64,000 nt of DNA from Diphasiastrum complanatum (Eukaryota; Streptophyta; Lycopodiopsida; Lycopodiales; Lycopodiaceae): contig CM055115.1 of assembly GCA_029204225.1 (NCBI GenBank), forward strand, positions 10,069,172-10,133,171, read 5' to 3'. Made by a program: the position numbers and the translations under genes. A model generated the notes under the pieces. The model was not told where the DNA came from, ran no database searches, and saw nothing but the letters and a program-made list of their open reading frames with translations. Shown here in pieces: positions 5,271 to 33,732 of this stretch. Numbering within the stretch: position 1 is the first letter of the stretch; every line of letters starts with the position of its first letter.

Positions 5271-6085
5271 ACATACAACCATAAATTGAAAACATTACTT
5301 TCATGAAGTAAACCAATATTGCATATGTAGAATTATCAAATGCTTACTTACTTAGATACCCGTTCTAGCCTAAAAGGCCTGGAATGTACAATACATTCCA
5401 TTCTAGACGTTCCGGAACGTACTGGGTCAAAACACGTTTTTTGAATTAAAAAAACATGATACTTGCTGGCCGCAATCCATCTGATAGGAGGGTGCAACAA
5501 CAGAATCGTTGGGGTACAGCTTGGAGAGAGAGAGAAAGAGAGAGAGGGGCTGAAAATTTTGTGCCATTATCCAAGCATTGATTATAGCGAAGGGCTGAAA
5601 TTTTTCTATGTAACATTAATTGAATTTTATCATCTATTAAGCTTGTTGACAAACAAAAAACTTACCTTGTCATGAGGGATCTTGTCGAGAGATTGTTTAT
5701 ATACTTCTCCAAAAAGCAACTCTGGCTCTAGCTCAACTTCTAAATGCTGCACGATGTTCAAGTGAGAGCCATTCTCCTTCATTCCTTAAACATTACATAA
5801 ATTGGGAAACATTACTTTCATGAAGTAAACCAATATTGTATATGTAGAATTATCAAATGCTTACTTGCTTAGATACTCGTTCGAGTCCAAAAGGCTTGGA
5901 ATGTACAATTCATTCCATTCCAGACGTTCCGGAATGTGTTTTTTAAATTAACAAAAATGTGATACTTGCTGGCCACAATCCATTTGATAGGAGGGTGCAG
6001 CAGCAGAATCGTTGTGGTACAACATGGAGAGGGAGAGAAAGAGAGAGAGGGGCTGAAAATTTTTGCCATTATCCAAGCACTGACT
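5141..6085 (-). repeat. Tandem duplication of an exon-bearing unit (about 520 bp period)
   Basis: Copy 1 spans about 5141-5580 and copy 2 about 5663-6085. Both carry the minus-strand exon (donor GTAAGT, start MKENGSHL), then TTACTTTCATGAAGTAAACC, a block with inverted GGAATG/CATTCC words, and a GAGAGAGAAAGAGAGAGAGG tract before GGGCTGAAAATTTT. Copy 1 contains the perfect 14-bp palindrome ACGTTCCGGAACGT at 5407-5420; copy 2 has one arm changed. Similar words (GTACGTTCTGACCC) recur near 60,630-60,660. Confidence 0.75.
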
Positions 6086-6284
6086 AATGGCTACACATAA
6101 TTGGAGACCAAGAGAAACCATTGATGCAATCAATATTTGTAATGAAAAAAATGCAAAAGATCAATGGATACCAAGAATATATTGAGAATATCAATGGATC
6201 TTGCTGCATCCCTCTGCAAAAGGCTCATTCTGAAAAAGAAAAAGATCGGATAAGATATATAGAAGCTCTTGGAAAGGCAGGATA

Positions 6285-6612
6285 ATGGATTTTAAAGTAT
6301 CACCTGCCTGTCAATCTATCACAAAAGTTTTAGTTCAGCATGCTTATCTTCACAACGAGCTCAACATTCATGATCTGAATCCAAATCATAGAAGGAAATG
6401 CAATTGTAAGTTTTCAGATTCAATTTTTTTAGATCTAGCATTTTCTTTAAATTTTATTTTTCATGAGATGTTTTGTTGGTTTTGCAGATTTGTATCCGTC
6501 AAATTTCGTTGAATGGCAATCAGTTCAATCGATTGCAGGAATAATCAATGTCATACATTCAGATATCGGTATTTTACAATATAAAGGGTCGTTCTCCCAA
6601 AATCACTTTTAG
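6285..6612 (+). CDS. Two-exon small protein, 81 aa, unknown function
   Basis: Exon 1 is 6285-6405 (MDFKVSPACQSITKVLVQHA...) and ends in phase 1 at a GTAAGTTTTC donor. The intron is 82 bp (6406-6487) with acceptor TTGGTTTTGCAG. Exon 2, 6488-6612, continues in frame (YLYPSNFVEWQSVQSIAGII) to a TAG. The in-frame join across good plant splice sites is the main support. The start is the first ATG of the open block and an upstream exon is possible. No known domain seen. It may be part of the same transposon-like locus as the minus-strand exons at 3.5-5.8 kb, which point away from it. Confidence 0.45.
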
Positions 6613-6717
6613 AGTCACGAGTTTCTTTTTATGATCATACCTATTTTCTTGATAAAATAAAAATGGTTTAGTTGGTAAATTAGAGCCATATCCTCTACCA
6701 GATTTTTCAAGTGAGGA

Positions 6718-7134
6718 ATGGATTTTTCCGATGCAACAATTTCAGAAAGCCTTTTATCTAGGATATATATTGATATTCAGAGTATATTAAAATGTAGCAC
6801 TGGATCAAAGAATAATAGATTAAGTTGGTATCTACCTTTTACTATTTTTGTTGATTTGTTTTCCAAATGCAGTGTTGGGAGAACGAAAACAATGTTTATT
6901 TGTAAGGACTTGAGTGTTGATATATTGCCGGAGTTGTGGGATGATGGTTGGGATACAAAACAAAATCAGCAAGTTGAGTGCAAAGTATGTTACTCATCCA
7001 TGACATTTAGATATCACATCGAAAAACAAATGCTCACTTTGCTACTTTATTATAGAAGATGGATTAAATGCAAAAATGTTTGGAAGCCACTTGATCAAGA
7101 TTTTGGTATAAACCCTTATAGCAACTTCAGATAA
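6718..7134 (+). CDS. Hypothetical ORF, 138 aa, with CxxC...H segment
   Basis: Single open frame starting MDFSDATISESLLSRIYIDI. Around residues 73-101 it reads WDDGWDTKQNQQVECKVC followed about 10 residues later by a His, loosely like a BED-type zinc-finger start, but the second His is not convincing. It lies 105 bp after the spliced ORF on the same strand and could be a later exon of the same gene. Amino-acid composition is not low-complexity. Function unknown. Confidence 0.3.
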   Translation: MDFSDATISESLLSRIYIDIQSILKCSTGSKNNRLSWYLPFTIFVDLFSKCSVGRTKTMFICKDLSVDILPELWDDGWDTKQNQQVECKVCYSSMTFRYHIEKQMLTLLLYYRRWIKCKNVWKPLDQDFGINPYSNFR

Positions 7135-7246
7135 TAGTGAAAATAAATGACAACATTCTTGCAATGGTTGAGGTCGAGGAAGATTGGTGTCTCAATCACA
7201 TTCGATCAGAACTAGAACTGTTGCAATTTGATCCACCTCAGTACTA

Positions 7247-7660
7247 TCAATTTTGATTGAATGGTGTATAGGTATTATGCCATATAAAAATATTCTTTTT
7301 TTTTCTATTTCTAAGTGAATCAGTTTCATAAAATATATAACTAAAACAGTTTTTCTTGTGTAGGTAAGAGTAAGGCAGGAAGAGCATATAAAATACAAAG
7401 ACATTGGAACATCCATCGAAATTAAAGATCCATAGATTATGAACTATGGAATTTTGTATTATGTATTCCAATTTTTTGTATACATAATTTTTGAAAATAT
7501 ATGAACCATTTCTTCTACGAGGCTCTTTCATTTCTATGATCTCCATTTTCATGGTGCAAAACACAATGTAAATGCAATTGGATAATATGACTTTTCGATA
7601 ACAAGATTCATTGTCTCCTACAGGAAATGCACTATCTCCATTGGGGAGATCTTCAGTCAC
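7247..7660 (-). other. Coding-like tail exon in tandem unit, interrupted by element A
   Basis: The minus strand near 7587-7660 reads VTEDLPNGDSAF.VGDNESCYRK. The same block recurs in the duplicate unit at about 14,643-14,720, and a more diverged version lies near 15,240-15,300 (ARDHKACDRKFIS). Preservation of the reading frame in the copies suggests these are remnants of a coding exon. Element A is inserted immediately beside it at the TTGAA target. Confidence 0.35.
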
Positions 7661-7665
7661 TTGAA

Positions 7666-10129: not shown

Positions 10130-12068
10130 ATGGGATCTGTTGGAGCATACCTTCTAGAAGCTAGTGAGAGGTTGAATTCTACAAATTATGCTATTTGGAA
10201 GGTTAGAATGGAGTCACTCTTAGTGCTCCAAGACCTTTATGAGTTCTTGATTGAAATTGAAGATGAACCTCTAGGTGCACAAGAGTTAGCTAGATACAAG
10301 AAGAGATCTAGGCTTGCACTTCATTGTGTGAAGATGAATGTGAGCAATGATTTGTGAGAGAAGTATCAGCATGTACTAGTGCTAAAGAGGCTTGGGAGTC
10401 TTTAAAATCAATCTATGAGTCTAGCAACACTTCTAAAGTTCTTATGCTTAGAAATCAAATTTTGCAAAGCATGAGAAGAAGTGAGGAGAGTGCACATGAT
10501 TATGTACTCAGAATCAAGTCTCTAAATAGGGAGTTGGCTTCCATTGGAGAGAAGATTCATGATGGAGAGCTTGTACAAATTGTCCTTAATGGTCTAGGAG
10601 ATGACTTTGCAAATTTGGTCCAAAGTTTTGCCATCCAAGACACTTTGCCAACTATAGAAAAACTTCACAGTGTATTAGTGGCTGAAGAGTGTAGGATGCT
10701 CCATGCAAAATCTAGGATGAGTTCCTTGTCTTTGCAGGATGGTGATGAGAAAGCCAATTTCTCAGTCAAGGGCAAAAAGAAGACCAATGGAAAGAAGAAG
10801 CATCCAAAGGAGGCCAAAGAAGAGGATGATGCATCAAGCTCAAAGGACAAGTCAAAGCAAAAATGCTTCTTTTGTGGAAGGAAGGGGCATTATGCATCTG
10901 AATGCTACAAGAGGCTAAGAGCACAAGTGGAGGAGGACAAACAAGGAAACCTTGCAAAGGAGGAGGAGGAGGATGAAGTAGATGTATTCTTGATGGCATC
11001 TACATCCTCACCAACAAGCAATAGCAATTCAAGAGACAATTGGTGGATCGACAATGGGGCTAGCTCCCACATGTCTTGTGAAAAGGACTTTTTCTCAACC
11101 TTACACTCATTCAATGATGCTAAAAAGTTTGTCTTTACTGCAAATGATGAAGAGTGTAGGATAGATGGTGTTGGCACCATATCTTTGTGTCTAGAATCCT
11201 CAAATTGCATGGATCTAGAAAATGTCCTTTATGTACCATCAATCACCAAGAATATGCTTAGTGTTGGTCTACTCTTAGAAAGTGGTTTGGATGTCCACTT
11301 TAAGCATGGTGTTTGCTTCATCTTGAAGAATGATGGTTGCATTGCAAAGGGATTTAAACATGGAAGATTGTTTAAGTTGGAAGCTAGTGTTGCGTTTGAA
11401 AGAATGAGCTTGGCGAAGGAGGAGATCACTCAAGAGGAGATCTTGGCAAAGTGTGATCTTGCTTGCATTGAGGAGGAGCATCAAAAGGAGGAAGATCTTG
11501 AGGATCAGCTTCAAAGCGTGAGAGTTCCAAGGGAGTCCTCAATGACAATGGCCGAGTCATCAAATTGCATGCAAGTTGTCCATTCAAGTGTGCATCTTGC
11601 AAGGGTGGTGAGCATTGGAGAGTCTACTATCTTTGAATACTTTTTGGAAAGTATTAGTAGACATGAGGTGACTTGTTTCTTACCTTTAAGATCCATGGTG
11701 TTTATTACTTTGTATGACAAGACAATGAAATGGGATGCTTTGAAATCTACATTTGTTGTTGATAAAGCAATTTCATTGGATAACTATTTTAGTAATAGTT
11801 TGAATAGAGTCATAAAAGATAAAACATCATTTTCTTTGGAAATCTTTGTGTCCACATGCTTTGTTCATGATCATTCCAATGTAAGGACCAAAGATTATCC
11901 TATTTCAATGATAGGAATAATGGTAGTGTTTTGCTCTTCAAGTAGAGATTGTAGAATCTACTTGTTTTCAGCCAAAGAATTTGTCAATGGTGGAAATGTG
12001 ATCTTTCAAGAGTGGAAGATTTGTAAACTTGAAGAAGCACCTTTGGATCAACACCTTATTCAATTCAT
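10130..12068 (+). pseudogene. Family B gag-protease polyprotein, frameshifted
   Basis: Gag of the UBN2/copia type begins at the ATG at 10,130 (MGSVGAYLLEASERLNSTNY). A one-base loss at about 10,353 relative to B2 creates a TGA and shifts the frame. The downstream frame carries a CCHC zinc knuckle (CFFCGRKGHYASEC) and the protease region WWIDNGASSHMSC, where the usual catalytic DSGA reads DNGA, so the protease Asp triplet is altered here. After the post-protease segment (GRLFKLEA) the integrase zinc finger and DD35E core are absent. In their place is a frame of over 200 residues shared with B2 that ends in NGGNVIFQEWKI, like the region after the integrase core of normal copias. Confidence 0.85.
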
Positions 12069-13463
12069 TGGATCAAGTTCAATCATGATGGCACCATCAA
12101 CAAGCATAAAGCAAGATTATGTGCCAAAGGATTTGCTCAAATCCATGGTCTTGATTATGAGGAGAACTTTGCACCCGTTGCAAAGATGGTGACAATAAGA
12201 ATTCTTATTTCTCTTGCTTGTTTTTTCAAGTGGAAGGTGTTTCGATTAGATGTATCCAATGCTTTTCTAAATGGTTATCTTGAGGAGGAGATCTATATGG
12301 AACAACCTCAAGGATTCATCAAGGATGAGTCCAAAGTGTGCTTGCTCTTCAAAGGTCTTTATGGACTCAAGCAAGCACCAAGATCATGGTATTGAAGACT
12401 TAATTCTCTTCTTATCTCACTAGGATTTACTCTTACTGACTATGATCCTTCCATGTATCTAAAGTTTGTTGATAGAAATATTGTCATTCTTCTAATTTAT
12501 GTTGATGACATTATTCTTTGTGGAAGTTGTATCAGGCTAGTTGATGAAACCAAGCTAGCACTTGGATGTGAGTTTAAAATGCAAGATCTAGGAGAGATGC
12601 ATTACATCCTAGGCCTAGAAATTGATTTTTATGAAAATCATGTCTTTATATGCCAATCTAGATATGCTCACTCTATGTTGAAAAAATTCCATATGGAAAA
12701 TTCTAAGAGCATAGATACTCCAATGGAGAAAATTGTAAAAGATCATAATAAAGGTGATGAAAGATCCTTTGAGGACATCACACTTTTTAGGAGTCTTGTA
12801 GGCTCCTTGGTTTGGCTTACCATTACTAGGCCCGATCTAAGTTTTTGTGTGCACAAATTGAGTCAATTTATGCAAGATCCTAACATCCATCATTGGAAGA
12901 TGTCCAAGAGAATTTTAAGATATGTATCTTCATCTTGTGATTATGGTCTACTCTATAAAAGTGAAGATCTATCCATTATTGGCTACTCGGATTCGGACTT
13001 TGCAAGTGACAAGATGGATCGAAAGTCTATTAGTGCATACACTATCTTTCTTGGAGGCAATCTAATATCTTGGCTTTCCAAAAAGCAAGATACTATATCT
13101 CTCTCTTCATGTGAGGCCAAGTACAAAGCACTCACTACAACTACCAAAGAAGTGCTTTGGATCAAGAGGTTATTAATGGAGCTAAAGTGCATCAAGGAGG
13201 ATGATCTACCAATGATCAAGTGTGATAACATCTCGGCCCAAGCTCTTGCCAATAATCCCATATTTCATGCAAGAAGCAAGCACATAGAAGTGGCACATCA
13301 TTTTGCGAGAGAAAAGCTTATTGGAGGAGAAATCTGTTTGGAGCATGTCAACTCGTCCTCTTGTATTGCCGATCTACTCACCAAGCCTTTGAGCAAAAGT
13401 GCTTTCATCAAGCATAGATCTAATCTTGGAGTTATATCAAGATCAATGTTCAAATCTTCATAG
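12069..13463 (+). pseudogene. Element A reverse transcriptase-RNase H, one internal stop
   Basis: Frame-continuous copia RT and RNase H starting at the chimera junction (WIKFNHDGTINKHKARLCAK). RT motifs include LDVSNAFLNGYLEEEIYMEQ, GLYGLKQAPRSWY and the catalytic YVDDIIL. RNase H shows GYSDSDFASD, then CEAKYKAL where EAEY is usual, CDNISAQALA and ADLLTKPL. A single in-frame TGA at 12,393-12,395 follows SWY. The frame ends 15 bp before the 3' LTR. The RT lacks its upstream gag, protease and integrase. Confidence 0.9.
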
Positions 13464-13478
13464 ATAATTTTTTAGGAG

Positions 13479-14214
13479 TGTGAAGAATTGAAAAAGATTA
13501 TCTATGTTAGATATAGGGGTCTTATGTTTTTTACATCAAGCATCTAGGTGTAGGATGTTGATAGGAATAAATTTGGCATAGATGGCAAATTATGCATTTC
13601 CACTTGTAATGCCACTATTGAGCCAAAATAGAGTAAGAGGCTAAACACGTGCCAATTAGAGTGTAGACAAGTGTAAAGCTTTTGTTTGATGAATTCCAAG
13701 AGGTCCAATAGGATTTAGAGGTGGAACCTTGTGAGGTCCAATAGGAAATTGAGGTGTGCTTGAATACAGTCCAATAGAACTAAGAGGTGCATGGATCAAT
13801 GGTCCAATAGGATCAAGAGGTGACAAAGAATGGTCCAATCATAGTTAAGCATAGTGGTAGCTCGTGGATCTACTAGTATCACTGTACGCATCAGTTTGGA
13901 TCTAATTGATTTGGTGATTTCATGGATTTTGTGAATTATTGGATTTCTAGCTTTCTCTCTCTACCCGAGAGCTCATGATGCTTTTTCTCTCTCTACCCAA
14001 GGAGAGCAGTTCGTTTTGACTTAGATTATTTTTTGAATAATTTCCACACATGTGAGTGAGAGTTGAAAGTGATTGAATGCATGTAGTAGTGTGTTTTTGC
14101 CATAGATTCAAAGATAGATCTTGAATCTCAATCTAGTCTTGATCTTGGTGCATCTACACACTTAGGAGATCACAAGTACATGTAGTGGACAGTCCACATG
14201 TGTGAAATTCAACA
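13479..14214 (+). repeat. 3' LTR of element A
   Basis: 736 bp, preceded by the short purine tract TTTAGGAG. Its G-box-like palindrome is mutated to CACACATGTG. It is followed by the TTGAA target duplication. Confidence 0.9.
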
Positions 14215-15183
14215 TTGAACTCCAGTGATCACTACAATCGACGCTTGCCCTTGTTGATGTCTCATATATATCGGTTGTATTTTTGGTCTTAATTGCCTTG
14301 GTCTGTATTGTCCTTGTCTTGGCATATTTGCATATGTTCAGAATCTAAGTTTGTCGCATGTCTGGATTGGATGTGGCAAAGATTCTATCAGATCATCTTT
14401 TTGAGCTTATCCAAAAAAAAGACCACGGTAAAGACAAGGCAGACCAAGGCTATGAAAAACAAACATGTCGAAAAACCATAGAAATTGATGATGAATGAAT
14501 CAGAACCTGAATTAGTAATAGGATAAAAAACAAGAAAGAGCAACTATAGAAAAACTGTAAATGTATTTCTATTAAAAATTTGTGTACATGTGTCTCATCC
14601 ACATCAAATGAGATGAATATTTAATCAATATCAACTATCTATGATATGATTTTTCGATAACAAGATTCATTGTCTCCTGCAGAAAATGCACTATCTCCAT
14701 TGGGGAGATCTTCAGTCACTTGAACTCCAGTGATCACTACAATCGATGCTTGCCCTTGTTGAAGTCTCGTATATATTGCTTGTATTTTTGGTCTTCATTG
14801 TCTTGGTCTGTATTGTCCTTTTATTGGCATATTTGGATATGTTCAGATGATGATCTGATCAAAGCTTTGTTGCAACAAATCTAAGTGAACTAATGTTGCA
14901 TGTTTGGATTGGTTGTGACAAAGGTTCGATAAGATCATTATTCTGAACTTATCCAAAAAAGACCACGGTAAAGGCAAGACAGACCAAGGCTATGAAAAAC
15001 AAACATGTTGAAAAACAATAGAAATTGAAGATGAATGAATCATAACCTAAATTGATATGAGAAAAAAAAAACAAGTAAGAACAACCATAGAAAAACTATA
15101 AGTATATTTCTATTAAAATTTTCTATACATGTGTCTCATCCACATCAAGTGAGATGAATATTTAATCAGTATCAACTATCTAT
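14215..15183 (-). repeat. Tandem duplication (about 545 bp unit) interrupted by element A
   Basis: One unit runs from about 7587 to 7660 and continues at 14,215-14,642. The second unit is 14,643-15,183. Both read TTTTCGATAACAAGATTCAT, ...ACTCCAGTGATCACTACAAT..., ...AAAAAAGACCACGGTAAAG... and ...GATGAATATTTAATCA.TATC. Element A thus landed inside the first unit of a pre-existing tandem pair. The minus strand contains the coding-like GDSAF..GDNESCYRK block. Confidence 0.8.
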
Positions 15184-15390
15184 GATCTCTAAATCCATTT
15201 CTCCAGTTCGAAGTAGCTTGGGTGGAGAACACTCGGCCACTACAACTCGATATGAATTTTCGATCACAAGCTTTATGGTCTCTTGCTTGAAGTGCATTAT
15301 CTAAGATCAGCTAATAGGAATTTGTAATTAATCAAAGATCAACGAATAGGAATTTGCATATGAAAAAAACAAAAACATAATTAAAAGTAA

Positions 15391-16774
15391 TTAATTGAAT
15401 ATTAGCCCTTCCAGATTTGGAAGTACATCTTGTAATGCAAGCCAACTGAAAAAGTGTTTGGCATTGCATATGGTATACCAACCACAGCTGACAGAATCAA
15501 CCTGCTGGGAGGACGACAGATCCAAATTTGAGCATTATGAGATATCAGATCAATGCGCAGGATGTAAGAATAAAATCTACAACGGAAACAAGTGCACGTC
15601 GAACCGATATAAAAAAAAATTGATTGAATATCGGATCAACGCGCACTTTATGAAAGTTAACCAATCAATAATTACAAGGGCGCATCAAACCGATATTGAA
15701 AAATTTATGCCTCTGCATCAACCATTTTCAGCTTCAAATATGCTTTTGCATTTGGTACTGGAAAGAGTTCTAGTATTTTTTGTATATGGGTCCTAGAAAT
15801 TGTGTGTGTGTGTGTGTAATAGAGTTCATCTTTGAACAAACTGGATTATACACACCCTCATCATTGACATACAAGGACAACACATATAAGCTCCAATGAT
15901 CACTAAAATCATAAAACAGTAAATTTATGAGAATCAATGTGAAATCAAAATTCATATGAAAAATTCTAATAAAATAAAATCTAAAAAATAGACACTTACT
16001 TTGTTATGTATGGCAGCACGAGAATTGGAGTCCCCAGTCTGATGTATTGGAGCATATCATCGTGCAGACTTTTGAAATCAGGGAAATCAAATGCAGCCAT
16101 GAATTGAAGGAAAAATAATGCAACATCTATAAACAATGGGTTCTGGAAGACCTCCATCCAGTACTGAATTGCCTTGCCACCTACATTGTCCCCTACATTT
16201 GATTCCTACTTTCTAATTCACCAGTATCTAAACTAGAAAGGGGGCGACCAGCATTGGTCTTCGGCATCCTAAAACTGTATCGAGGACCTCAACCTTTAAG
16301 GTACGTATTTAACAATTGGTCATACTGTACATATTGAGGAGTATTTACAAAGGCAAGTGCGGGGGGTGACATAAGTATTACTGATAAACCAATTAAAGAA
16401 TTGTCATTCAAAATTGATTCTACCTTTACACTAAGAAAATTATCTAAATCGCTTCCAAGAACAGGACGAGGGGAACTCATATTTATGGGTTTAGGAGGAG
16501 GTGGAGATTTATTAGGAGAGGAAGATTTAGCAAGAGAAGTTAAAGATTGTCGTGATATACCAACAGGGTTAATATAGATTTTGTAGTGAAAAGTATCGTT
16601 CCAACTGAGGACAGCGTTAGAAAGTTATGTTTTTGGTGTAATTATGGCAGGTGGGTTTGAATGTTATTCTGGTTGTCGATAGACATTAAAAAGTAACCAG
16701 TATTACTTGGAATGGGTAATGTTAATGAATTCAGAACAACAATTTGGCCTCTATCGATTTGAAGGAAGCACGTT
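15391..16774 (-). pseudogene. Ulp1/C48-like cysteine protease exons (C-terminal part of a candidate fusion gene)
   Basis: Minus-strand exons join in frame. Exon 16,294-16,604 (WNDTFHYKIYINPVG..., Ser/Pro-rich, ending LLNTYLK) joins 16,000-16,192 (GDNVGGKAIQYWMEVFQNPL... to VLPYIT) across a 101-bp intron. That joins 15,902 downward (NDHWSLYVLSLYVND) across a 97-bp intron with donor GTAAGT and acceptor TTTTAG. A last exon, 15,391-15,504, reads QVDSVSCGWYTICNAKHFF to a stop. HWSLYV is the catalytic-His motif of Ulp1/SENP proteases, and Q-x5-C-G is the Gln and nucleophile Cys. The expected catalytic Asp position reads VYN, i.e. Asn. The residues between His and Cys are shorter than usual, so an exon may be lost among the repeats at 15,505-15,850. 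A further exon-like block lies at 16,774 downward (TCFLQIDRGQIVVLNSL) after a TTTGTAG acceptor, but its phase does not fit the next exon, which argues for decay. Confidence 0.72.
15541..15697. repeat. GATATCGG-motif cluster 1 (four copies)
   Basis: Copies at 15,541-15,560 (+), 15,593-15,610 (-), 15,627-15,646 (+) and 15,678-15,697 (-) fit GATATCGGwTCrAcryGC with few changes. They alternate in orientation at about 35-50 bp spacing and lie between the last two Ulp1-like exons. Such arrays resemble sub-terminal transposase-binding repeats. Confidence 0.6.
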
Positions 16775-16786
16775 CTACAAATGAAA

Positions 16787-17760
16787 TGTTATCAGAGCAG
16801 TACAGCAGACTACACTCTGGCTGACTAAGGTGTCAACATAGAATCGAGAATTGTTTGATGTATTCGCAACTACGGACACAATCAATTAATCGAGTTTGCA
16901 AACTATTCATTCCTAGACAATAGTCCTCAACAACTAAAGCCCAAATTAATGGTTAAAGAGCACGAATGGAGCACGTTAGAAACTTATGTCAATGCCGATA
17001 AGGAAAACAGATCAGAGACTCAATTCTTCAGACAGGGACTGTCATCTCATTTGTATACATACAAATTAATTCAATGATCGTGCTAGACTACACAAAGATA
17101 GTCATTATTCGAGTGTAGAAAAGAAAGTATTTGCGACAGATGATTCTAAGACAATTCTTTAGAGCATGCTTTATGGAAACACAACAAATGACTGTAATGC
17201 ACTAGAGCGTCTGTCTGATCAAAGAGTGATTCATGAAATGCATTAGAGATTGTTAGCAGACTCAAGATCACTCACACTCAATAGTGCGGTAAACAGAGAT
17301 AAGGGAGAATAACTCATAGAACTCTATTCCCTTCTTCAATCTCTTACATAAGCATAAACTCTTCTCTCCTGATGATCGAGATTGAAGTGTGAGATCAATA
17401 TATGTCTTACAGGGTGAACAAACACACCTCTTAAACAATAGGTGCATTGCTCCCTCATAAGGGTCTAGTTAAGAATTAAACTGAAAATACGTTCAACTAT
17501 ACCATAAGAGGTATACTTAACTGTGAGTTAAAGTTACTCTAGTTTAACATGTCTTTTCATAACTAGTCGTTTTGTATGGACGACCTAGTTAAGAGTTATC
17601 CAAGGCAATGTCTTTTCCTATTAAAGGTCTAGCCCTTAATTTATAAGACAAGTACCTAGGAGATATATTCTCGAAAAATGACTTAGGCCTCTTCATGATT
17701 TATGCTTAACCGACTCATATCTTCATTTTCGAGTATATCATATCATATTTATGTTGATAT
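16787..17760. other. Sequence separating the histone-like and Ulp1-like exons, possible retroelement remnant
   Basis: No coding block found. TGTTATCAGAGC at about 16,787 resembles a copia primer site with one change, suggesting an old LTR-element fragment inside an intron. No LTR pair could be delimited. Confidence 0.3.
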
Positions 17761-18393
17761 TCAATTTTTGACATTTGCGTGGCATCGCAAAGATGTAGTG
17801 GAAGGAGAAGAAGGAGACTTAGGAGGAGAATGCCTAGAAGAAAGAATAGTATTCAGAGGAGATGGCTTGGAAAAATCCCTCGCTTTAGATGGAGGGTCAA
17901 GAGACCTCCTCTTCTTTGAAACACTCCTGCTCTGTATACAAATAACAAGCCAGGTTGGTGGAGATTGCTTTCGTTTTCTCCTCTCTAAATCTTGTTCTAG
18001 AGGAGAGGAGGGAGCATGTCTAACGTATTCAGCAAACTTGTCATATGTGTCCCGAAGCCTGAACAAATTTTTGAAATCCTTGGACATGATGATCACCCTC
18101 TTGGCATGGACAGCTGCAACAATAGTATCTAAAAAAAATTTCACCTGGAAATCCTCATATGTTGTGTGCAGCGCCTCAATCACCATTACAGTTCATCTCA
18201 CATCTGCAGGTAGACTTCTTGTAACGTCTCTGATGGACCTCCATATGTGAGATTTTATAATCAGAAGATTATTTGTCTTATGAAGCTTCCGAATATCCTT
18301 GAGTCAAGGTGGGTCTCTTCTTCTGCCCCTTGGCCTAGGAGGTGGTGGTGGTGGACGAAGTGGTTGTTGTGGATTTCTCTGACCCTTTTTTAT
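17761..18393 (-). pseudogene. Divergent histone H3-like domain with basic N-tail and Ser/Pro-rich C-tail
   Basis: One minus-strand frame from about 18,393 to the stop at 17,761. It has a basic, Pro-rich N-tail (PPPPPPRPRGRRRDPP), then a region that aligns along the H3 fold: LKDIRKLHKTNNLLI with the alpha-N helix (REIRKYQKSTELLI), SIRDVT with LVREIA, ADVR with TDLR, EALHTTYEDF with AALQEAAEAY, and VHAKRVIIMSKDF with IHAKRVTIMPKDI, the most diagnostic match. The fold covers about 18,033-18,305. A tail follows that histones lack (KKRRSLDPPSKARDF..., SPPKSPSSPS). In-frame TGA codons at 18,304-18,306 and 18,193-18,195 break it. It is too divergent for canonical H3; CENH3 or a transposon-captured H3 are alternatives. 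It lies upstream of the Ulp1-like exons on the same strand, which share the Ser/Pro-rich style, so the two may be one gene. Confidence 0.75.
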
Positions 18394-18440
18394 ATCCAAT
18401 AATTATAATTTTGGAAAATTCCAAAGGCCAGATTTTTACT

Positions 18441-18514
18441 CGATAGTTAATCAACGCGCATATAAATCATTTGAAAACCAGAGTATGGGTTCTCACGTGC
18501 TCATTCGATATTGG
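18441..18514. repeat. GATATCGG-motif cluster 2 (two copies)
   Basis: 18,441-18,460 (+, GATAGTTAATCAACGCGCA) and 18,494-18,514 (-, read as CCAATATCGAATGAGCACG) are weaker matches. They lie just upstream of the histone-like frame. Confidence 0.45.
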
Positions 18515-18561
18515 ACGGAATATGAATGATCAGAGCTTGATTCGATAGATTCTACATAACT

Positions 18562-20016
18562 TTGGCCAGTATGAAGAGTCTTCTGAATCAAGCTTTGATC
18601 ATGCATATAGGGTCCAATAGTTTCAAATTTTTTGATAATATTTTGGTCCTGGAATGGCGATTCGATGGATTCATCAACAAATTCAATGCAAGACTTTGTG
18701 TCACTCTCAAATCAAATGTCCTACCTTTGAAGACACTTTTGCACATATTGCATAAATGTTAATTATAAGAATTCTCATTTCTCTTGCATGTTATCATAAT
18801 TGGAGGATGTTTCAACTTGATGTTTCTAATGCCTTCCTCGATGGTTACCTTGAGGAGAAGATTTATATGGAGCAACAATCTGGATTCGTGAAAGTTGTTA
18901 AAGAAACAAAAGTTTGTCTTTTGTTCAAAAGCCTCTATGGACTAAAACAAGCACCAAGGTCTTGGTATGCAAGGCTCAACTCCTTTCTCGTGTCACTCTT
19001 CATCTTAGTGAATACGACCCTTCATTGTACATTAAGTTTGTAAATAACTTTGTAGTCATTCTTCTCATCTATGTAGATGATATCATTCTTAGTCGAAATA
19101 ACAAGGAGCTACTTGAAGAAACAAAATGTGCACTTGGTAGTGAATTTAAGATGCAAGATCTAGGAGTTCTTCACTACATTTTAGGCCTAGAAACTGACTT
19201 TTGGTAAGGTCATGCTTTCATAAGTCAAAGTAGATATGCTCTTTCCATGCTTAAGAAATTTTAAATGGAAAATTGTAAAGGCATAGATACTCCAATGGAG
19301 CAAATTGTAAAAGTTCCTATAAAAGAGGATAAAAGATCCTTCGAGGAATTCACTCTTTATATGGGTCTTATTGGCTCTCTTGTTTGGTTGAGAGTCGCTA
19401 GGCCTGATCTAAGTTTTAGTGTGCACAAATTAAGCCAATACATGTAGGATGGAAATTGCCAAAGAGAACCTTGAGATGTGTATCTTCTACCTTAGACTAT
19501 GGATTGATCGATAAAGGAGACGATCTAACTTTGGTTGCATTTTCATACTCGTATTTTGCAAGAGACAGAGTGGATAGAAAATCCACAAGTGATTACACGG
19601 TTTTCATTGGAGGGAATCTAGTTTCTTGGCTATCAAAGAAGCAAGCAACTATATCCTTGCCATCTTGTGAAGTTGAGTACAAAGCTCTTACAATCAAAAC
19701 TAAGGAAGTTTTATGGATCAAGAGGCTACCTATGGAGCTAAAGTGTTATGGAGATGAAGACCTTCCAATTATCAATAATGATAACATTTCAGCTCAGGCT
19801 CTTGCAAACGATCTTGTATTTCATGCAAGGAGCAAACACATCGAGGTAGCTCATCACTTTGTAAGAGAGAAAGTAATTGGGAGAGAGACCTTATTGGAGC
19901 ATGTTGGATCTTCAAATTGTGTTGTAGATCTTCTCACCAAGCCATTGCTCAAGAATGCATTTGTCAAGATGAGATCTAATCTTGGCTTAATCTCAAAGTC
20001 TATGGTGAATAGGTAG
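18562..20016 (+). pseudogene. Copia element C: decayed reverse transcriptase-RNase H
   Basis: Begins with a degenerate RT start (DGFINKFNARLC, about 18,665) and continues through LDVSNAFLDGYLEEKIYMEQ, LYGLKQAPRSWYARLNS and YVDDIILSRNN. There are several frame changes and stops, for example at 19,207 and 19,446. RNase H is inactive: the usual SDSDFA reads SYSYFA, so catalytic Asp residues are lost. The tail AQALANDLVFHARSKHIEVA and VVDLLTKPL are intact in sequence. The gag, protease and integrase half is missing. It belongs to the same clade as elements A and B. Confidence 0.88.
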
Positions 20017-26330: not shown

Positions 26331-27860
26331 CCATTCCAATTTATATAAAAAAATAATGCTTTTTGGTACAAATATGCTTAGAATATCCAAATATTCTAGA
26401 ATTCCACAACTTAGTCATCTGAAATCGCTAGGAGATCCATCAAGTCTCGGACAATTATAACTCAATCCAAAGTACTGCAATTACTCTAATGAGTTGACAA
26501 CCCCATTCTTAGCATCACGTGCAAGATATCAGCAACTATCCATATCTTAATAGATTTATCTATCCCCTATTGTACGGCGAGCACTTATAGACTACAATTA
26601 GTGAGGTAAGCAAATTTTACTTAATGAAAATGCTTGTGAGATCCACACAATCTCAAGTATGTGCTGGAGTAAAGAAATTTAGAGTTCAACCAATAGATCT
26701 AAATCCTTGACTCACCCAATTGATCAAGAATTACTCAATATCTTAAAAATCCTTCCATTTTCTTATACTCTTCAAATGACCTTTAAGTATCAATTTATGA
26801 TTCGTCAATCATAAACATTTAGACTCTTTTGATTCATCAATCATAAATTATAGGATTCCAAAACCATACTTTATCATTGGAAGATACTAGAGTATATGTA
26901 TAGCAACATACAACTCAGAAAATATAAGAATCATTTTTAAATCTTTTCCACAAGGAAAAATACATATACCAATAGATATCCAATATCTATATCGAAAATG
27001 GTACAAACAAAATCCCGATGGTAAGGCCTCTTCATAATTTGGCCATCCAACTCCCTAAGTAAAAACACACTTCTTGGTGTTTTGCACCCGAAACAGTCGA
27101 CAAACTACACAGTCACAATGCTCTCAATCAGAGCTTGCATCTGATACCCATATTGCCTAAAAAAGTTTTAAAAAATTTCAAAAAAAAAATGATTATGCAC
27201 GATTCTGGGAAAATCTCAAAATGTGTCAAAAATGATTCTGCACGATTCTGAATTACGGTGCATCTATGATTCTAATACAACAACCCAAGAAAAAAACTTA
27301 GTTCATTCAAAACCCTAACTTTGGTCTAAAAAAAAAACAAAAGCATAGGTCAACTTGATTGCTCCCCACACAACCGCCATCAACAAGGAAACGGAGGCTG
27401 CCCAAAGTGAGAGAAATAGAGGTTCCTACATGCAGGTCAAGAGGCTGGATTGTGGGTTTCATTAGGGGAAATATGGGCTCAAAATGGGCCCTTTAAGAAA
27501 TTTCACTTTAGAGAGGCTACGTAGAGAGAGAATGCAAACCGGTTTCTTCTGGTCACCATTTTTTGAGTTTCCGGCCTTGCCCGATGTTTAACTAGTATGG
27601 TTAACTTCAGACAATAGCTAATTTAGCATGAGATGTAATAACCTCTTTTCATGCTCGTTCCAAAATTCGGGACTAGAGCTTTAAGACTGAAAATCTTGGT
27701 GTGCTCAATGCAAAAACTGAAGCGGGAGAGGCAAAACTTTTGAAATCACTGTATGCTTATAGTGAAATATGAGGTGGGATGATTTTTCAATGCGACATAG
27801 ACATTACAAAAGTAAGGAATGCTAGGTCTATTCATATTGATTTATTGTAGGTAGATTCGT
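26331..27860. other. Unassigned sequence upstream of the transposase-like gene
   Basis: No gene supported. GGGTATCAGATGC on the minus strand near 27,137-27,150 could be an old primer site. TTCAATGCGACA at about 27,788 is a 12-base match to a motif copy at 32,505 and may mark the left side of the DNA element. Confidence 0.35.
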
Positions 27861-27864
27861 TTAC

Positions 27865-28493
27865 ATGATTGTAGCTTTAACAATGGCAATGTTCCATTTG
27901 CATGTTGCTCTTCCAATGGAATGCACTCCAATTATTAAGAAAAATACGAAAGTTGTAGAGAATGTTGCAGCAATAGTTAGAGAATTGAGAATGAATAATC
28001 ATATGAATATAGATTTGTGGGTGGATGGATCAATTTATCCTAATGATCAAGCTACCAATTTGTGTCCAGATTTAAGTCAGTAACTCATCTTCTCAGATAT
28101 TGTGAAGGAAATAACGAATTACTTGGATATTGTCAAAGGTTGCGTGATATTGGAATGCATAGCATATCTTGTCCGAATCAACAATTACAGTTTGCTAATC
28201 CACAATTGCAACGTGTAAATCAACAACTGCTTCATTATGTGCAACACACTAGTACTAAAAACAATGCACTCAAGAATGCTATGTCGGAGTTGAATGCTAC
28301 TGTCACTACTCTTCGAGGATCAAACCAAGAGATGTTAAAATCCATGGAAAAGTTGCCATCCGAGAGTTTAAAGTCTACTATTGATCTAAAAGTTATCAAT
28401 AAGGCAATGATGAAGATGAAAAGAAAGAGTATACTGATGAAGAATATTGATGACCTATCTACACATAGCGGCAATCAGAAAAAAAGAATCTGA
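27865..28493 (+). pseudogene. N-terminal exons of transposase-like gene (Gln/Asn-rich, coiled-coil-like)
   Basis: Two overlapping frames, 27,865-28,083 and 28,062-28,493, apparently one broken coding region. The second reads CPNQQLQFANPQLQRVNQQL then a Leu/Met heptad-like stretch and a basic end (MKMKRKS, NQKKRI). It is followed by a plausible intron ending TGTTTGTTGCAG at about 28,620. It is assigned to the transposase gene only by position and strand. Confidence 0.35.
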
Positions 28494-28569
28494 GCATTCT
28501 AGTTTGTTGTCATCTAAACTGTTTATTTGATTTGTATATGTCATTTAAGTTTGATTTGCACTTGATAAT

Positions 28570-30890
28570 ATGGAGTATTTATTTATTAGACATAGTTTGA
28601 GTTTCATATGTTTGTTGCAGGTCATGTTTGGTGGCAAAGAACTATTTAATAGATCGTTCATGAATTGGATCATCTTTAAGTCATGTTTACCAAGAAAGTT
28701 AGCAAAGGAAATGATAAAAAATGCTCGGTTTGAAAAAATGACAAATGAAATTGTAGAGACTGTTTTGATTAAGGTTCAATTATACTTGGATGCGAATGTG
28801 ATACAAGGTGCATGTGATGTATCTGGAATTACCATAAATGCTTATTCTATTTTTTTTAGAATAGTTAAAGAAACTTTCTCCCAAGTGATGGTGAAGAAAA
28901 TTAATCTTCCACGTCCATATCGGGTAAGATTAGCTAGAAATTTTTACAATGACAGAATGTTCAAAGTAGTTGGCCAACCACTTCATATAACTGAATTATA
29001 CAAATCAGAATATGGTGAGCTCAATTACAATGATCGCAATAATATTTTCCTTGATATTGAAAATGTTTTAAAATACATTATTCGATTCTATAAACTAGAC
29101 GAACATCAAGTAAATGGAAAGATCATTATTGTAATAGAATTTGATGAATCTAAAATAATCAAGGGTTAGAAGTTGGAACGTGTGAGTGTCACTTTGATGA
29201 ATACAATTTCAGATATAGATGATTGAACGTTTAGAGTTCAATCAGAAAATCACATATGGTGGTTGGCGGCATTCCAGGATACCATAAAATACTGTCATGG
29301 ATAATTTCAAGAACAAATTATGGCAAGATTATAAAGAGACATTTGGAGAGTGAGAAATCTACAGTCGAAATCCATGAAAGTTTTTAAATTCAATGGCACC
29401 TTGCAGGGGATTTGAAAACATTAAAATGTATGTGTGATGTCTCTCATGGGGCAACATCAAAGCATCCATGTGTTTATTGCATGAAGGATTGCTACAATAT
29501 GAATTTGGGACAATCAACAAACACTGGCCCAACACGAGAAGTTGAAGATGCAAATATGAAAAGTGTTATGCCAATTCCATTAAAATATGTTCACATACGC
29601 ACATTGCATCTTCAATCGGAAAATCACATATCGTGGTTGGCGGCATTCCAGGTATACATTTCAATTTTTAATTAGAATATCTATATTAACAATTCATGCC
29701 TTGCCAGTTTTATTGACATGTCATGCATTACTTGTTTCTCTACAAGACTTGAAAGAGGACCATAAAATACTATCATGGATAATTTCAAGAACAAATTATG
29801 GCAAGATTATAATGAGACATTTGGAGGGTGAGAAATTTACAGTCGAAAACCATGGAAGTTTTTAAATTGAATGGCACCTTGCAGGGGATTTGAAAACATT
29901 AAAATGTGTGTATAATGTCTCTCATGGGGCAACATCAAAGCATCCATGTCTTTATTGCATGAAGGATTGCTACAATATGAATTTGGAACGATCAACAAAC
30001 ACTGGCCCAACACGAGAAGCTGAATATCCAAATATGAAAAGTGTTTAGCCAATTCCATTAAAATATGTTCACATATGCACATTGCATGCTGAGGTTTGTA
30101 TTATTGAAAAACTAATTTACCTACATATTCTACTAGCATGGAATCAAAAACCAGAGCCAGTGGCTAAAGCAGCAATTAGAAGGTCGAAATAGTTTTGTCA
30201 AATGCAGGACTACGTAAAGGGAATGTCACGATTGAAAAAAGTGACACACTCTCTAGGAAAAAAGAAAACGTTCCTAATAAGCCATCAATTGGAGGTGCTA
30301 AAGCAAGAAGATTCTTATCCAATCACACATGCAAAGAATCAAGTGTCAGATACGAAATATGGAAAGAAATTGTTCAAGCCACACGAACACTGGAAGGAAA
30401 TAATCGAGTGGAAAAGAGACAAGTGTGGACCAATTTCGACAAACTCATAGGTGTTATCAGGAAAGAAAACCTATCATCAAAAGATGTGAGGACTTTGCAA
30501 AATCATTGCACCACATTTGTAAAATATATACAATATTGTTGGGGAAAAGACAACATTACTCATTACATGGTACTAATCTATATTATCGTCTGGTCATTTT
30601 CTCATTCAGACTTATATTTTTTTCTACTGATGTAACTAATCAAAACTATTGTTTGTAGCACATCCTTCTTCATCATGCAACTTATTTTGCAAAGGAATAT
30701 GGGAGCTTAAGTATCTGGTCATCACAAGGCATGGAAAAATCTCATTGGCAAGCAAGGGGAGCATTTCATAGAGCAACAAATCATGGAGGACACAATTCAA
30801 GAAATAAATATTTAGTTCAACTGTTTTAGTGGTTTTACAGAAGAGCACAATTTAGATATCAAGCTATAAACTCGCCAAGTTACGATACTT
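28570..30890 (+). pseudogene. DDE-like transposase of unassigned family, decayed
   Basis: Domain order on the plus strand: 28,621-29,169 (FGGKELFNRSFMNWIIFKSC... to IIIVIEFDESKIIKG, with a candidate first Asp). Then at about 29,401-29,500 LAGDLKTLKCMCDVSHG and HPCVYCMKDCY, with candidate second Asp and a CxxC zinc motif. Then PLKYVHI.TLHAE. Then 30,195-30,569 (KARRFLSNHTCKESSVRYEI... to NITHYM), an 89-bp intron (30,570-30,658, GTACTA...TTTGTAG), and ILLHHATYFAKEYGSL, WSSQGMEKSHWQAR and HGGHNS with a candidate Glu. The D...GDLK-CxxC...QGxExSH layout is that of a DDE transposase, but I cannot place the family. Breaks: several stops near 29,169-29,400, an internal duplication, and TAG at about 30,826 where Gln is expected. 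It is convergent with the gene at 30,962-32,488. Confidence 0.6.
29238..30090 (+). repeat. Tandem duplication of the transposase GDLK-CxxC core
   Basis: Copy 1 is about 29,238-29,611 and copy 2 about 29,614-30,090, both starting AAAATCACATAT.GTGGTTG and ending GTTCACATA.GCACATTGCAT. Copy 2 has about 105 bp after GGCATTCCAG (GTATACATTT...CTACAAG...) that copy 1 lacks, and this piece looks intron-like. Confidence 0.85.
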
Positions 30891-30961
30891 CGAAAGGCAT
30901 TCAAATTCATTACAAAAGAGAGATCCTTGTAATATATCAAAAATCTATTATAGAAAACTAT

Positions 30962-32488
30962 TTAATTATCATCATCATCCTCTTCAAGATTCAGACGGAT
31001 GGTATTGTCATGAAGGAATAATCTCTTTTCATATGGATCCAAAAATTCTAAATTTTTCCTCTTGCTCATACCAATGTAACCCGAATAAAGAGCCATTGCA
31101 GATGATCTTTTTGTAGTCTCATTGGGAGTATAACCCAATATCTTAATAGCCAAATATCTCTTCACAAAAAATACTTTATATGTTCCTCTTGCGTACTTAT
31201 GGCCTCCTAAACAAACTGATAATGATTTGATGGCCATAATGACAGTGGTTGCATATGGATTATAAGATGAATGATATATACGAATCTCATTATTTTGAAA
31301 GTTTTTCAAATAATTAGATAGAGAAACATCTTTTCTCCTGGCTGATACATCTCGGACGCCTCCATGTCTTATACCAAAGGCATCTATTTCAATAGCATAC
31401 TGTAAACGAGAAAAGAAAAGAAATTTAGAATGATACATAACACTGCAAACCCAATAAGAAAACTAAACAATATCAATACCAATATAATATCTACTTACCA
31501 GATCATAATCATCGTAATCAACGACATTTGTTATGTTGATGTCATGTCCTCCAATGGCCTCTACATTTCCAAAAGGGTTATATCTAGCCCTAGGGGAATA
31601 TCTTTTTTGAAATTCCAAAAATTCCTCCTCTGTAGGCAAAGTTTTTTCATGGGCTTTGGATTTTTCAATCATGGCCTCCAAGGCCTTATTGCTAGATTTC
31701 CAATCGCCATCTTTATCATAATCTATCTCACTTTCAAGGTCATCATATGAGTGATCAACAATGTCATAAAATCCTGATAAATTTTGAGCAAAAATTGAGA
31801 GGATTTCATCCTCTCTCAAATTCAATATATCTTCTATATCATTAAGTAAAATATAAGATTCATTATTCAAAAAATATAAAGGAACATCGAGTAGAGTTAA
31901 TTGATTAACAAGAGATGCAGATGGAAGAGAATCAGAGAGGATTATAGAACGAGGGAGAGTTTTTTCTAAATCTAAAGCCATAGATGCTATAGCTTCAACC
32001 CCTATTACAGTATGTGCATCATTTACATCAGCTGGATCAGGTGTAGATGCTTCGATCAATGGAACAGTTGAAGATTCAACAGACTCATCATCTGGAATTT
32101 CAGCAGATATATAGAAGACCAAAGCCATTCCTTTGATTAGAAGGCGACATATTATTTTGTGGATATCAAAGTATATATTTCTTTTGAAATGGTCATGCAG
32201 GTTAGAGTACTTTCTATTGTGTTTATGCTTAGAGGATGTTTGGAAATGTACAAGGTCCTGAAAATGAACGAAACAAAAATTATTTATATCCAAAACAGGA
32301 GTACTAATAATCTAAGAAAAATTATCAAGATAAGAAATTAAATTATAATGATTCTCATTAACTAGCTTATCGATATCAAAGGGAGCAAAAAAAATACTAG
32401 CAAAATACTCGAATTTGTTAGATAGAATGTCACTGGCATTAAAAACATCCATAAATTTGTCATCTGAGGCCATGGAAGAACTAGCCAT
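30962..32488 (-). CDS. Three-exon gene, about 440 aa, apparently intact, unknown function
   Basis: Exon 1 is 32,363-32,488 (MASSSMASDDKFMDVFNASD...). The intron is 32,258-32,362 (GTTAAT...TTTTCAG, 105 bp). Exon 2 is 31,499-32,257 (DLVHFQTSSKHKHNR... to VVDYDDYDL). The intron is 31,400-31,498 (GTAAGT...TTTACAG, 99 bp). Exon 3 is 30,962-31,399 (YAIEIDAFGIRHGGVRDVSA... to LEEDDDDN, stop). All joins are phase 0 without stops; the second intron is very well supported, and the first donor (CTA|GTTAAT) is weaker. The middle is acidic (YDDLESEIDYDKDGDW) and the C-terminal half mixed alpha/beta-like, with KYARGTYKVFFVKRYLAIK. No signal peptide, no membrane segment, no family recognised. A TATA box lies about 270 bp upstream of the ATG. 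It is tail-to-tail with the decayed transposase and its leader holds four motif copies, so it is probably an accessory gene of the same DNA element. An intact frame beside a decayed transposase is notable. Confidence 0.68.
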
Positions 32489-32758
32489 ATTGAATCCGAT
32501 ATCGGTTCAATGCGACAAATAAATATCGGTAGAGGAATAAAACAAAGTGCACACGTTGATCCGATATGGTAAAGCTGAGAATGAAATTTTTTGAAAAGCA
32601 CTCGTCGGAAGTGGCTGATATCGATTCAACATGCCTGAATGAATATAGCATGCACAACAAAGGGATGGTGCGTGTCGATTCGATATCACGAGAATGAAAA
32701 AAAACAAAAAGGCTAGAGAGTTTAGAATACAGAATCGAAATATGGAAAGTGGTGCACA

Positions 32759-32766
32759 TATTTATA
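32759..32766 (-). promoter_or_regulatory. TATA box of the 440-aa gene
   Basis: The minus strand reads GGCTATAAATATGTGC, a textbook plant TATA box about 270 bp before the ATG at 32,488. It implies a leader of about 240 nt. Confidence 0.65.
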
Positions 32767-32837
32767 GCCAATTCTTGTTGATCACAACAATACATTTGTC
32801 AAATAACGAATTGAGATTTACAGCCTATATTTATCCA

Positions 32838-33197
32838 TTAGAGGAGTTTTGAACTCCAAAAAGACCCTTTAAGAATTCGTGCAAGATGTAGTTTATATTA
32901 TTAAAATATTATAACACTAATACTTTGACTTGCCATAACTTTTTAATCATAGCTCAAAAGTATGTCATGTAATATATCATTGAAAGCCTTTGTTGAGCGC
33001 TTTCCAATGCATTAAACTTCGCTAAATTTGGACTTACCACTAAAAAGTTATGCCATTTTTAGTGTGGAATCAAAATGTGGACTCAAAAAGTTACGTTACG
33101 TAGATTTCAAATTTGAGTGTTTTGATTAGTCCATGTGTAAGAAAAAATATAAAAGAATCTTCACAAAGGGTCTTTTTTGGATTTAGAACTCCTCTAA
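32838..33197. mobile_element. MITE-like element with palindromic 33-bp terminal inverted repeats
   Basis: The left end, 32,838-32,870, reads TTAGAGGAGTTTTGAACTCC then AAAAAGACCCTTT. The right end, 33,165-33,197, is its inverse with a few changes. The termini TTA...TAA are compatible with a TA target duplication. Each end is itself palindromic (GGAGTTTTGAACTCC). The element is 360 bp with no coding capacity. It sits about 70 bp upstream of the TATA box of the 440-aa gene. Confidence 0.75.
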
Positions 33198-33732
33198 TGC
33201 ACCAATCAGAGTGAGACAAATTTGTACCTATGCCGGAATACATTAACTAGTCTATCACTAGATTCAATGAATCATCATTAGCCCTAACACTAGAATCTGT
33301 ACCTGTGCCGGAATACATTAAATAGACAATCACTAGCCTCGTAGAATAATCATTAAAAAAACTATAAACAAATGATTAATGGATATCATTGAAAAACGTG
33401 CACGAGGAGAATTATTACAATCTCCCGCCCTATTTAAGCACCATAAAGATGAAAATTTTCCTTTTGAGATAATGTTCATTCAGAACATTTTCATAAGTCT
33501 TTAATTATGCATTCCAATATGAGTTTTCTGCATATGGGATATCGGATCAGCACGCCTGGCAAGCAATGTATTTGCTGCATTTGGACTGTGTGCGGCAGAT
33601 TTAGTGTCTTCTAGTTCCAAAGAGCTCTTCTTCTTCTAATGAGGGAAAGAAATCCAAGAATAAGAGAAGGATAAGAAACACACGGTTGTTTAAAATAATG
33701 ATGTAGTTACCACCAAATTTAGACAAGAAAAT
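33198..33732. other. Unassigned sequence left of element D
   Basis: Holds a short duplicated phrase TGTACCT.TGCCGGAATACATTAA (about 33,222 and 33,299) and one GATATCGG motif. No gene seen. Confidence 0.4.

Follow-up and report, generated by a model that had tools for sequence, protein, structure and literature searches.

A transposon gene in Diphasiastrum complanatum predicted to join histone H3 to a Ulp1/SENP-like protease domain

The stretch of DNA analyzed here, referred to as the window, comprises 64,000 nucleotides of Diphasiastrum complanatum (NCBI GenBank assembly GCA_029204225.1, contig CM055115.1, positions 10,069,172 to 10,133,171 of the forward strand). On its minus strand lies a decayed copy of a transposon gene in which a histone H3 fold appears to be joined to a protease-like domain of the Ulp1/SENP type. 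The original prediction for this locus, made from the sequence without database searches, had placed an H3 fold on the minus strand at 18,033-18,305, and database searches bear this out. A Pfam search of the translated minus-strand block gave a histone match (36.7 bits against a cut-off of 26.4, at 18300-18028 with the in-frame TGA read as X), and the same translation aligned with PDB histone H3 over residues 2-83 (82 residues, E=1.3e-11). The stop-free second half of the block, taken together with the adjoining linker, matched PDB at E=1.2e-4 and reached 18.3 bits against Pfam, which is below threshold. Rfam gave no match, a protein database searched with the H3 part returned 24 and 73 candidates of which none scored within the limit, and no match was confirmed when viral_contigs was scanned with the H3 piece and with the transposase alignment.

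Two protease motifs had also been predicted on downstream exons of the same strand, and both are present. HWSLYV is read on the minus strand in the exon that runs from 15902 downward, and QVDSVSCG, which has the form Q-x5-CG, in the exon from 15504 downward. The first splice, between exon 1 and exon 2 (GTAAGT...TTTTAG), is in frame, and the joined sequence reads ..LPYITNDHWSLYV (..LPYITNDHWSLYVLSLYV).

The copy in the window was expected to be decayed, and it is. It has neither a start codon nor the H3 tail, which is found in other copies, and it carries a TGA in the fold, a stop in the linker, and a frameshift near 16205. Because a stop and a frameshift precede the protease part, the window copy is dead. 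The linker is further interrupted by an insert at 17789-16548, which resembles a solo long terminal repeat (LTR) since it starts with TG, ends with CA, and has ATCTT on both flanks. With the insert and one ATCTT removed, a continuous Ser/Pro-rich frame connects the H3 fold to the linker's second part. The features are collected in Table 1.

Table 1. Parts of the H3 element and related features in the window
Feature	Position	Strand	Basis
Upstream half of a same-family element, ending at reference -896; carries transposase-like gene A and antisense frames B	27457..33594	+	
Upstream portion of the H3 element (reference -894 to -615)	18386..18665	-	alignment to reference
Pro/Arg-rich remnant between H3 tail and fold: ..PPPPPPRPRGRRRDPP, then stop	18301..18385	-	comparison with copies
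H3 fold from alpha-N through alpha-3, with a single in-frame TGA	18028..18300	-	PDB and Pfam matches
Ser/Pro/Lys-rich linker, first part	17790..18027	-	reading frame
Solo-LTR-like insert TG...CA, 1242 bp	16548..17789	.	ATCTT at 17790-17794 and 16543-16547
Ser/Pro-rich linker, second part; ends at stop	16283..16542	-	in frame with H3 minus insert
End of exon 1, Ulp1-like domain N-terminal part to ..LPYIT; frameshift near 16205	16000..16282	-	same part aligned in 21 sequences
Intron 1, GTAAGT...TTTTAG	15903..15999	-	splice signs; kept in copies
Exon 2: HWSLYVLSLYVNDEG.. (His motif), CA microsatellite, ..ILELFPVPNAKAYLKLKMVDAE; donor is GC in window copy	15711..15902	-	end inferred from copies
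Exon 3: QVDSVSCGWYTICNAKHFFSW.. (Gln and Cys motif)	15406..15504	-	ends inferred from copies
Exon 4 remnant: ..MHFKQETIKLVIENSYRVVVAECSPPKLLRTGEMDLEIIDS and stop	15172..15300	-	same exon in copies
Downstream part of element, reference +1862 to +2328, beside nested Copia-like element	14215..14645	-	alignment to reference
Element 3' part, reference +2324 to +3900, beyond nested Copia-like element	6083..7665	-	alignment to reference

Three queries were used to look for copies in the source genome of the window, which comprises 5176 contigs and 1.745 Gb. In each case the top-ranked candidates were scored and no random sample was drawn, namely the best 150 of 5670 for the H3 block, the best 150 of 1164 for the protease exon, and the best 103 of 14305, which gave 108 matches, for a 404-residue query (H3 tail to PYIT, protease exon). 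The best 150 H3-block candidates, which include the window, all matched, with E=3.5e-36 for the weakest. With the 404-residue query, 98 of the 108 matches listed cover the H3 and the protease part in one stretch, and the remaining 10 are five adjacent pairs. About half of the spanning matches listed (50) run from residue 5 or earlier to residue 400 or later; of all 98, four are free of stops and 94 contain a stop. A protease-exon place lies 850-2128 bp downstream on the same strand for at least 34 of the best 150 H3 places, where 0.02 would be expected by chance, and other orders within 3 kb were found 0 times among the best 150 places of each query. The H3-like and Ulp1-like parts, which could have turned out to lie far apart in paralogues, occur together in the copies examined.

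Closer reading covered 20 copies at 10 kb, eight upstream extensions, and eight short loci from the H3-block search. Among 26 loci outside the window, the end of exon 1 was found in 24, exon 2 in 22, and exon 3 in 23, some with stops or gaps. L002 and L003, two short stretches that are close kin of the window copy, contain none of the three; for L002 the genome search puts the protease exon 2.1 kb downstream, beyond its stretch. L016 is without exons 2 and 3, and L012 without exon 2. In L009 a single frame of 427 codons runs from the H3 tail through the fold and the linker to ..SYITK and a splice donor. It is without an ATG and its exon 3 has a stop, and its place is one of the four stop-free exon 1 matches. 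In the related copies, the H3 and the start of the protease part lie within one exon, and for the family this arrangement is a plain observation.

The copies also give the parts that are missing from the window. Better-preserved copies start MARTKQTARGHSGG, and the majority of 23 sequences begins M-A-R-T-K-Q-T-A-R-G-H-S-G-G. Within this tail K4 and G13 are kept in 23 of 23 aligned copies, T3 in 22 of 23, and H10 in 22 of 22. The 22 copies in which position 9 is present carry G, V, or I there, and never K. The rest of the H3 tail is swapped for a Pro-rich sequence of nearly equal length. Copy L017 aligns over its whole length from the tail onward, with residues 1-132 against 1-133 or 3-135 of PDB H3 chains (E=4.9e-18), and L011 scores 55.7 bits against Pfam Histone. 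In the fold, loop 2 (HAKRVTIMPKD) and R83 are strongly kept. Downstream of the fold, a Ser/Pro/Lys-rich linker of ~170 residues precedes the protease-like part. This part starts in the final section of exon 1; exon 2 then contributes HWSL and contains a CA microsatellite, exon 3 contributes Q-x5-CG, and exon 4 runs to the stop.

This exon model was built from reading frames and splice signs alone. In the aligned copies, the first splice has its donor GT in 21 of 21 and its acceptor AG in 19 of 21, the second has 17 of 18 and 16 of 22, and the third has 19 of 21 and 18 of 21. The predicted product is one fused protein with an ARTKQTAR tail, a Pro/Arg spacer, an H3 fold, a Ser/Pro/Lys linker, and, at the C-terminus, a Ulp1/SENP-like domain whose coding sequence is divided among four exons. 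It shares with canonical histone H3 the start of the tail, a near-equal length from the start to loop 2, and HAKRVTIMPKD. In contrast to canonical H3, K9 and the K14-K27 stretch are gone, a Pro-rich spacer is present, F84 is replaced by W, and a long C-terminal extension with the protease-like domain is attached. Because position 9 is never K though K4 is kept in 23 of 23 copies, the protein is described here as H3-derived and not as canonical H3. We consider the finding real and the identity firm as judged from sequence, and a fused H3-protease-like gene within a DNA transposon is very probably what these copies represent.

The protease motifs are well conserved and have family-type spacing. 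The Cys is present in 20 of 20 copies; 20 of 21 have the His, and 16 of 18 have the Gln. In pairwise alignment with SENP8, the spliced majority sequence scored 68, compared with a mean of 30 (standard deviation 4.8) for shuffled sequences, and 0 of 1000 shuffles reached 68. The window copy scored 58 against SENP8, which again 0 of 1000 shuffles reached, and the majority sequence scored 47 against SENP1, reached by 9 of 1000. In a control set of 5000 sequences, each joined from three random pieces of the window, none reached 68 and one reached 58. A PDB sequence search with the protease part gave nothing credible. The domain is therefore called Ulp1/SENP-like and not a proven member, because the motifs and the pairwise score hold but the profiles miss; it is probably a protease of the Ulp1/SENP type. 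With SENP8/NEDP1 and Ulp1 (C48) it shares HWSL and Q-x5-CG, about 70 residues apart in the exon model. It differs from them in having no Pfam match, an Asn at the usual distance of the Asp, and a fusion to H3.

Variants among the copies were divided into shared variants, present in at least four copies, and singletons, and the two classes were compared by their nonsynonymous to synonymous ratio per site. The near-duplicates L005 and L019 and the window copy (L001) were left out, as were, for each part, copies covering less than 80% of it. Shared variants mostly predate the copies and reflect the active source, and singletons are mostly decay after insertion. With small counts and related copies the ratios are indicative; for shared variants they were 0.32 in the H3 fold (18 synonymous, 20 nonsynonymous), 0.27 at the end of exon 1 (14 and 14), 0.00 in exon 2 (5 and 0), 0.02 in exon 3 (10 and 1), 0.38 in the tail, and 0.63 in the linker. 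The singletons gave 0.76 for the tail, 0.62 for the H3 fold, 0.89 for the linker, 0.51 for the end of exon 1, 1.60 for exon 2, and 0.67 for exon 3. This pattern suggests purifying selection on the H3 fold and, strongest, on the protease exons. A gene-free scan of the whole element picked a plus-strand frame over most of exons 1 and 2, and then over exons 3 and 4. The same scan also flagged the minus-strand intervals 944-1094, 2219-2369, and 2894-3044. The scan is weak upstream of the H3 gene, where the average number of aligned sequences is only 5-19.

The element that carries this gene is ~10 kb long. Its ends are imperfect inverted repeats of ~35 bp, CATTAGG..CTCAAAATGGGCCCTTT. The 5' end is common to four copies, of which L018 and L019 are one duplicated segment, and lies ~6.1-6.3 kb before the fold; the 3' end is common or nearly so to seven copies, 3.6-4.5 kb after the fold. 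Upstream lies a spliced transposase-like gene, for whose protein a database search gave 64 relatives (E<=0.001), 29-61% identical over the aligned part. One relative is a protein of the fern Adiantum nelumboides, and the 63 others come from genome and metagenome data in public sources. Several blocks, including KLDE and KTLKCM, are invariant across the relatives and look like those of a DDE-type transposase. With its inverted ends, its transposase-like gene, and its many dispersed copies, the element is very probably a class II DNA transposon. The inference in the original prediction, that a now decayed DNA transposon had captured an H3 variant and a Ulp1-like protease, agrees with the inverted ends, the transposase-like gene, and the shared exon in 98 of the 108 matches listed.

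Assignment to a described superfamily was attempted for two groups. CACTA/EnSpm does not fit the CATTAGG ends, no TNP2 match was obtained, and the 3-bp duplication typical of that group was not visible by eye in L017 or L018/L019. A Vandal or Mutator-like element with a KIU gene was likewise not found, with no Mutator transposase match in Pfam and no DUF1985 in the H3-protease pieces. Five transposase pieces gave no Pfam match above cut-off, and seven of nine relatives had none at E<=0.01; relative P0014 showed a sub-threshold Zw10_N, and P0064 a DUF7794 in another part of the protein. The transposase-like family P0001-P0064 is without a Pfam entry of its own. Between the transposase-like gene and the H3 gene, L014, L017, L018, and L024 also contain antisense frames B (MASSSM.., up to 351 residues), at roughly -3.1 to -1.3 kb relative to the H3 fold. 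These frames have no Pfam or PHROG match and a weak coding signal, with ratios of 0.44-0.84.

The source of the H3 part was examined against canonical H3 and the centromeric variant CENH3. For nine copies, core scores against Arabidopsis sequences were close, with H3.1 ahead in seven, a tie in one, and CENH3 ahead in one. Loop 1 aligns without a gap to canonical H3, with a two-residue gap to Arabidopsis CENH3, and with a one-residue gap to rice CENH3; the copies do not have the longer loop 1 of CENH3. The tail ARTKQTAR..GG, the canonical-length loop 1, and the intron-less H3 part lean toward canonical H3. W84 and the KDF motif resemble CENH3.

When the core of canonical H3 was used to search the genome, the 150 matches listed comprised 13 at 97-99%, which are host H3 genes, 11 at 79-93% over part of the core, and 126 at 49-59% with frames of up to 440 residues. 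Because none of the 35 family places tested was among the 150 listed, the 126 are regarded as other H3-like places that are nearer to canonical H3 than the fusion subfamily is. This comparison covered the 35 family places and the first 30 places from the 404-residue query. The fusion subfamily may represent just part of the diversity among the genome's H3-like repeats. A reading of exons at 65% as CENH3 was rejected, as those exons are 79-93% like canonical H3 and the search matches include host H3 genes. The places found in the canonical-H3 search do not serve as evidence that the family descends from canonical H3, as they were not among the family places tested.

Several observations weigh against the overall explanation, a fused H3-protease gene in a DNA transposon with an anti-silencing role. 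At the level of the gene, exon 1 is open from the ATG to the splice donor in 0 of the 26 loci outside the window, and no intact gene was found there. In the H3 core, several residues differ from H3: F84 is W in 23 of 26 copies, C110 is A in 24 of 26, and R63 is lost (H3 numbering). For the protease part, Peptidase_C48 gave no Pfam match in the window or in pieces of the copies, and NCBIfam returned no C48 domain. The majority sequence scored 40 against yeast Ulp1, which 44 of 1000 shuffles reached, and hhalign against a three-sequence C48 profile gave a low probability of 50 (P=1.6e-4). In 20 of 21 copies an Asn occupies +17 from the His, which by spacing is the place of the catalytic Asp in Ulp1; in the pairwise alignment with SENP8, this Asn is not matched with the SENP8 Asp. 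A specificity for SUMO is guesswork. Shared variants may partly be repeated mutation and not ancestry. As for the transposon, no target-site duplication was seen by eye at L017 or L018/L019, the only independent copies with both ends.

In plants, H3K9 methylation keeps transposons silent, H3K4 methylation is a mark of active chromatin, and SUMO participates in silencing. The proposed role for the fused protein starts from this background. The H3 part would pair with H4, or bind H3 chaperones or readers, and thereby carry the protein to chromatin. Without K9 and the K14-K27 stretch, silencing marks would be impossible on it, and K4 is kept. The attached protease would then strip SUMO or a similar tag from nearby silencing factors, and the element would stay active. 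Such an element may handle the packaging of host DNA and so avoid silencing. A fused H3-protease DNA transposon with a chromatin-acting, anti-silencing protein is the best explanation overall, and we give it about an even chance; the anti-silencing part, judged separately, is tentative and falls somewhat short of that. A K4-keeping, K9-less H3 that seems to be under selection and is linked to a domain resembling a protease would offer a handle on escape from H3K9-based silencing, a question that can be tested for this element by ordinary chromatin assays.

An anti-silencing role has precedent, because VANC proteins remove methylation and lift the silencing of their own transposons (PMC5735166) and some VANC genes carry a Ulp1 domain, whose role is described as unknown (PMC13317346). 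The VANC and Kaonashi (KIU) genes of Vandal Mutator-like elements are likewise accessory genes of plant DNA transposons with a Ulp1 domain (PMC5735166, PMC13317346). Here, by contrast, the partner is histone H3, and the element has inverted ends, whereas the Ulp1-bearing VANC elements are termed non-TIR, that is, without terminal inverted repeats (PMC13317346). No DUF1985, C48, or known transposase profile reached cut-off in the H3 element. Fungal DNA transposons that bear TET/JBP genes also carry a chromatin-acting accessory gene with a proposed escape from silencing (PMC12730594). Their cargo is a DNA-modifying enzyme, whereas the H3 element carries a core histone fused with a domain resembling a protease. 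Known transposon cargo includes DNA-demethylating enzymes, histone methyltransferases, and VANC proteins (PMC12730594, PMC5735166). No description of a transposon-encoded H3 or of an H3-Ulp1 fusion was found among the papers listed in a literature search that left subscription journals mostly outside its scope.

More specific or different roles can be set against the anti-silencing one. The element may supply, along with a SUMO-type protease, its own nucleosomal H3, which keeps K4 and could not receive methylation at K9 or K27, so that its DNA would be wrapped in nucleosomes resistant to silencing. This is possible but unlikely on the sequence evidence; if true, anti-silencing systems would gain a new class, in which a mobile element replaces histones. 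Rather doubtful is a targeting factor, in which the H3 fold docks the transposase complex on nucleosomes for the choice of insertion site and the protease part serves in structure or processing instead of acting as an enzyme against silencing. The gene does share its element with a transposase-like gene, loop 2 and R83 are strongly kept, and the likely third residue of the triad is Asn, but the near-invariant motif Cys (20 of 20) and His (20 of 21) fit catalysis better than a scaffold.

A tail decoy seems improbable. Here the ARTKQTAR tail would be free in the nucleoplasm and would occupy the readers, writers, or erasers of H3K4 outside nucleosomes, which would suit the conservation of K4 (23/23), T3 (22/23), G13 (23/23), and H10 (22/22) in a tail otherwise replaced by Pro-rich sequence. 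The H3 fold, however, is about as constrained as the tail (0.32 against 0.38), and a decoy would not need it. It is quite unlikely that a captured host H3 gene and a protease piece have spread with the element as a functionless passenger. Most copies have stops or frameshifts, including 94 of the 98 spanning matches listed, and 12 of 24 copies preserve the frame from the H3 through the linker and the rest of exon 1, where 8 would be expected by chance, so frame keeping alone is weak evidence of function. Against a passenger, the shared variants are poor in amino-acid changes, with 15 synonymous and 1 nonsynonymous in exons 2 and 3 together. That two unrelated pseudogenes lie side by side by chance is rejected as having a negligible probability: in the window copy the parts are indeed separated by stops, an insert, and a frameshift, but one order accounts for at least 34 pairs, where 0.02 would be expected, and the other orders for 0 among the places listed, and 98 of the 108 matches listed extend over both parts.

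The window holds a second part of an element of the same family. The plus-strand half (27457-33594) and the minus-strand half (from 18665) lie in opposite orientation and end at the neighbouring element positions -896 and -895, and both are probably halves of one element that was cut and then inverted. Copia-like sequence lies near both breakpoints of these halves. One Copia-like element, named by reading, lies nested at 7663-13775 (+) within the 3' portion of the H3 element and has LTR stretches that are 97% identical. Another, also named by reading, is at 33733-39808 (-) and contains an open frame of 1322 residues at 34386-38351. Its LTR stretches at 33733 and 39509 are identical over 300 nt, and identity falls to 84% when the pair is extended further. 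In the 3' part of the element, just beyond the last exon of the H3 gene, direct repeats ~505-542 bp apart occupy 14215-15186. Three direct copies of a further repeat are found on the plus strand at 8624, 44409, and 48280, 98-99% alike over 300 nt, and each is 92% complementary to 57176-57736 (-) over 561 nt.

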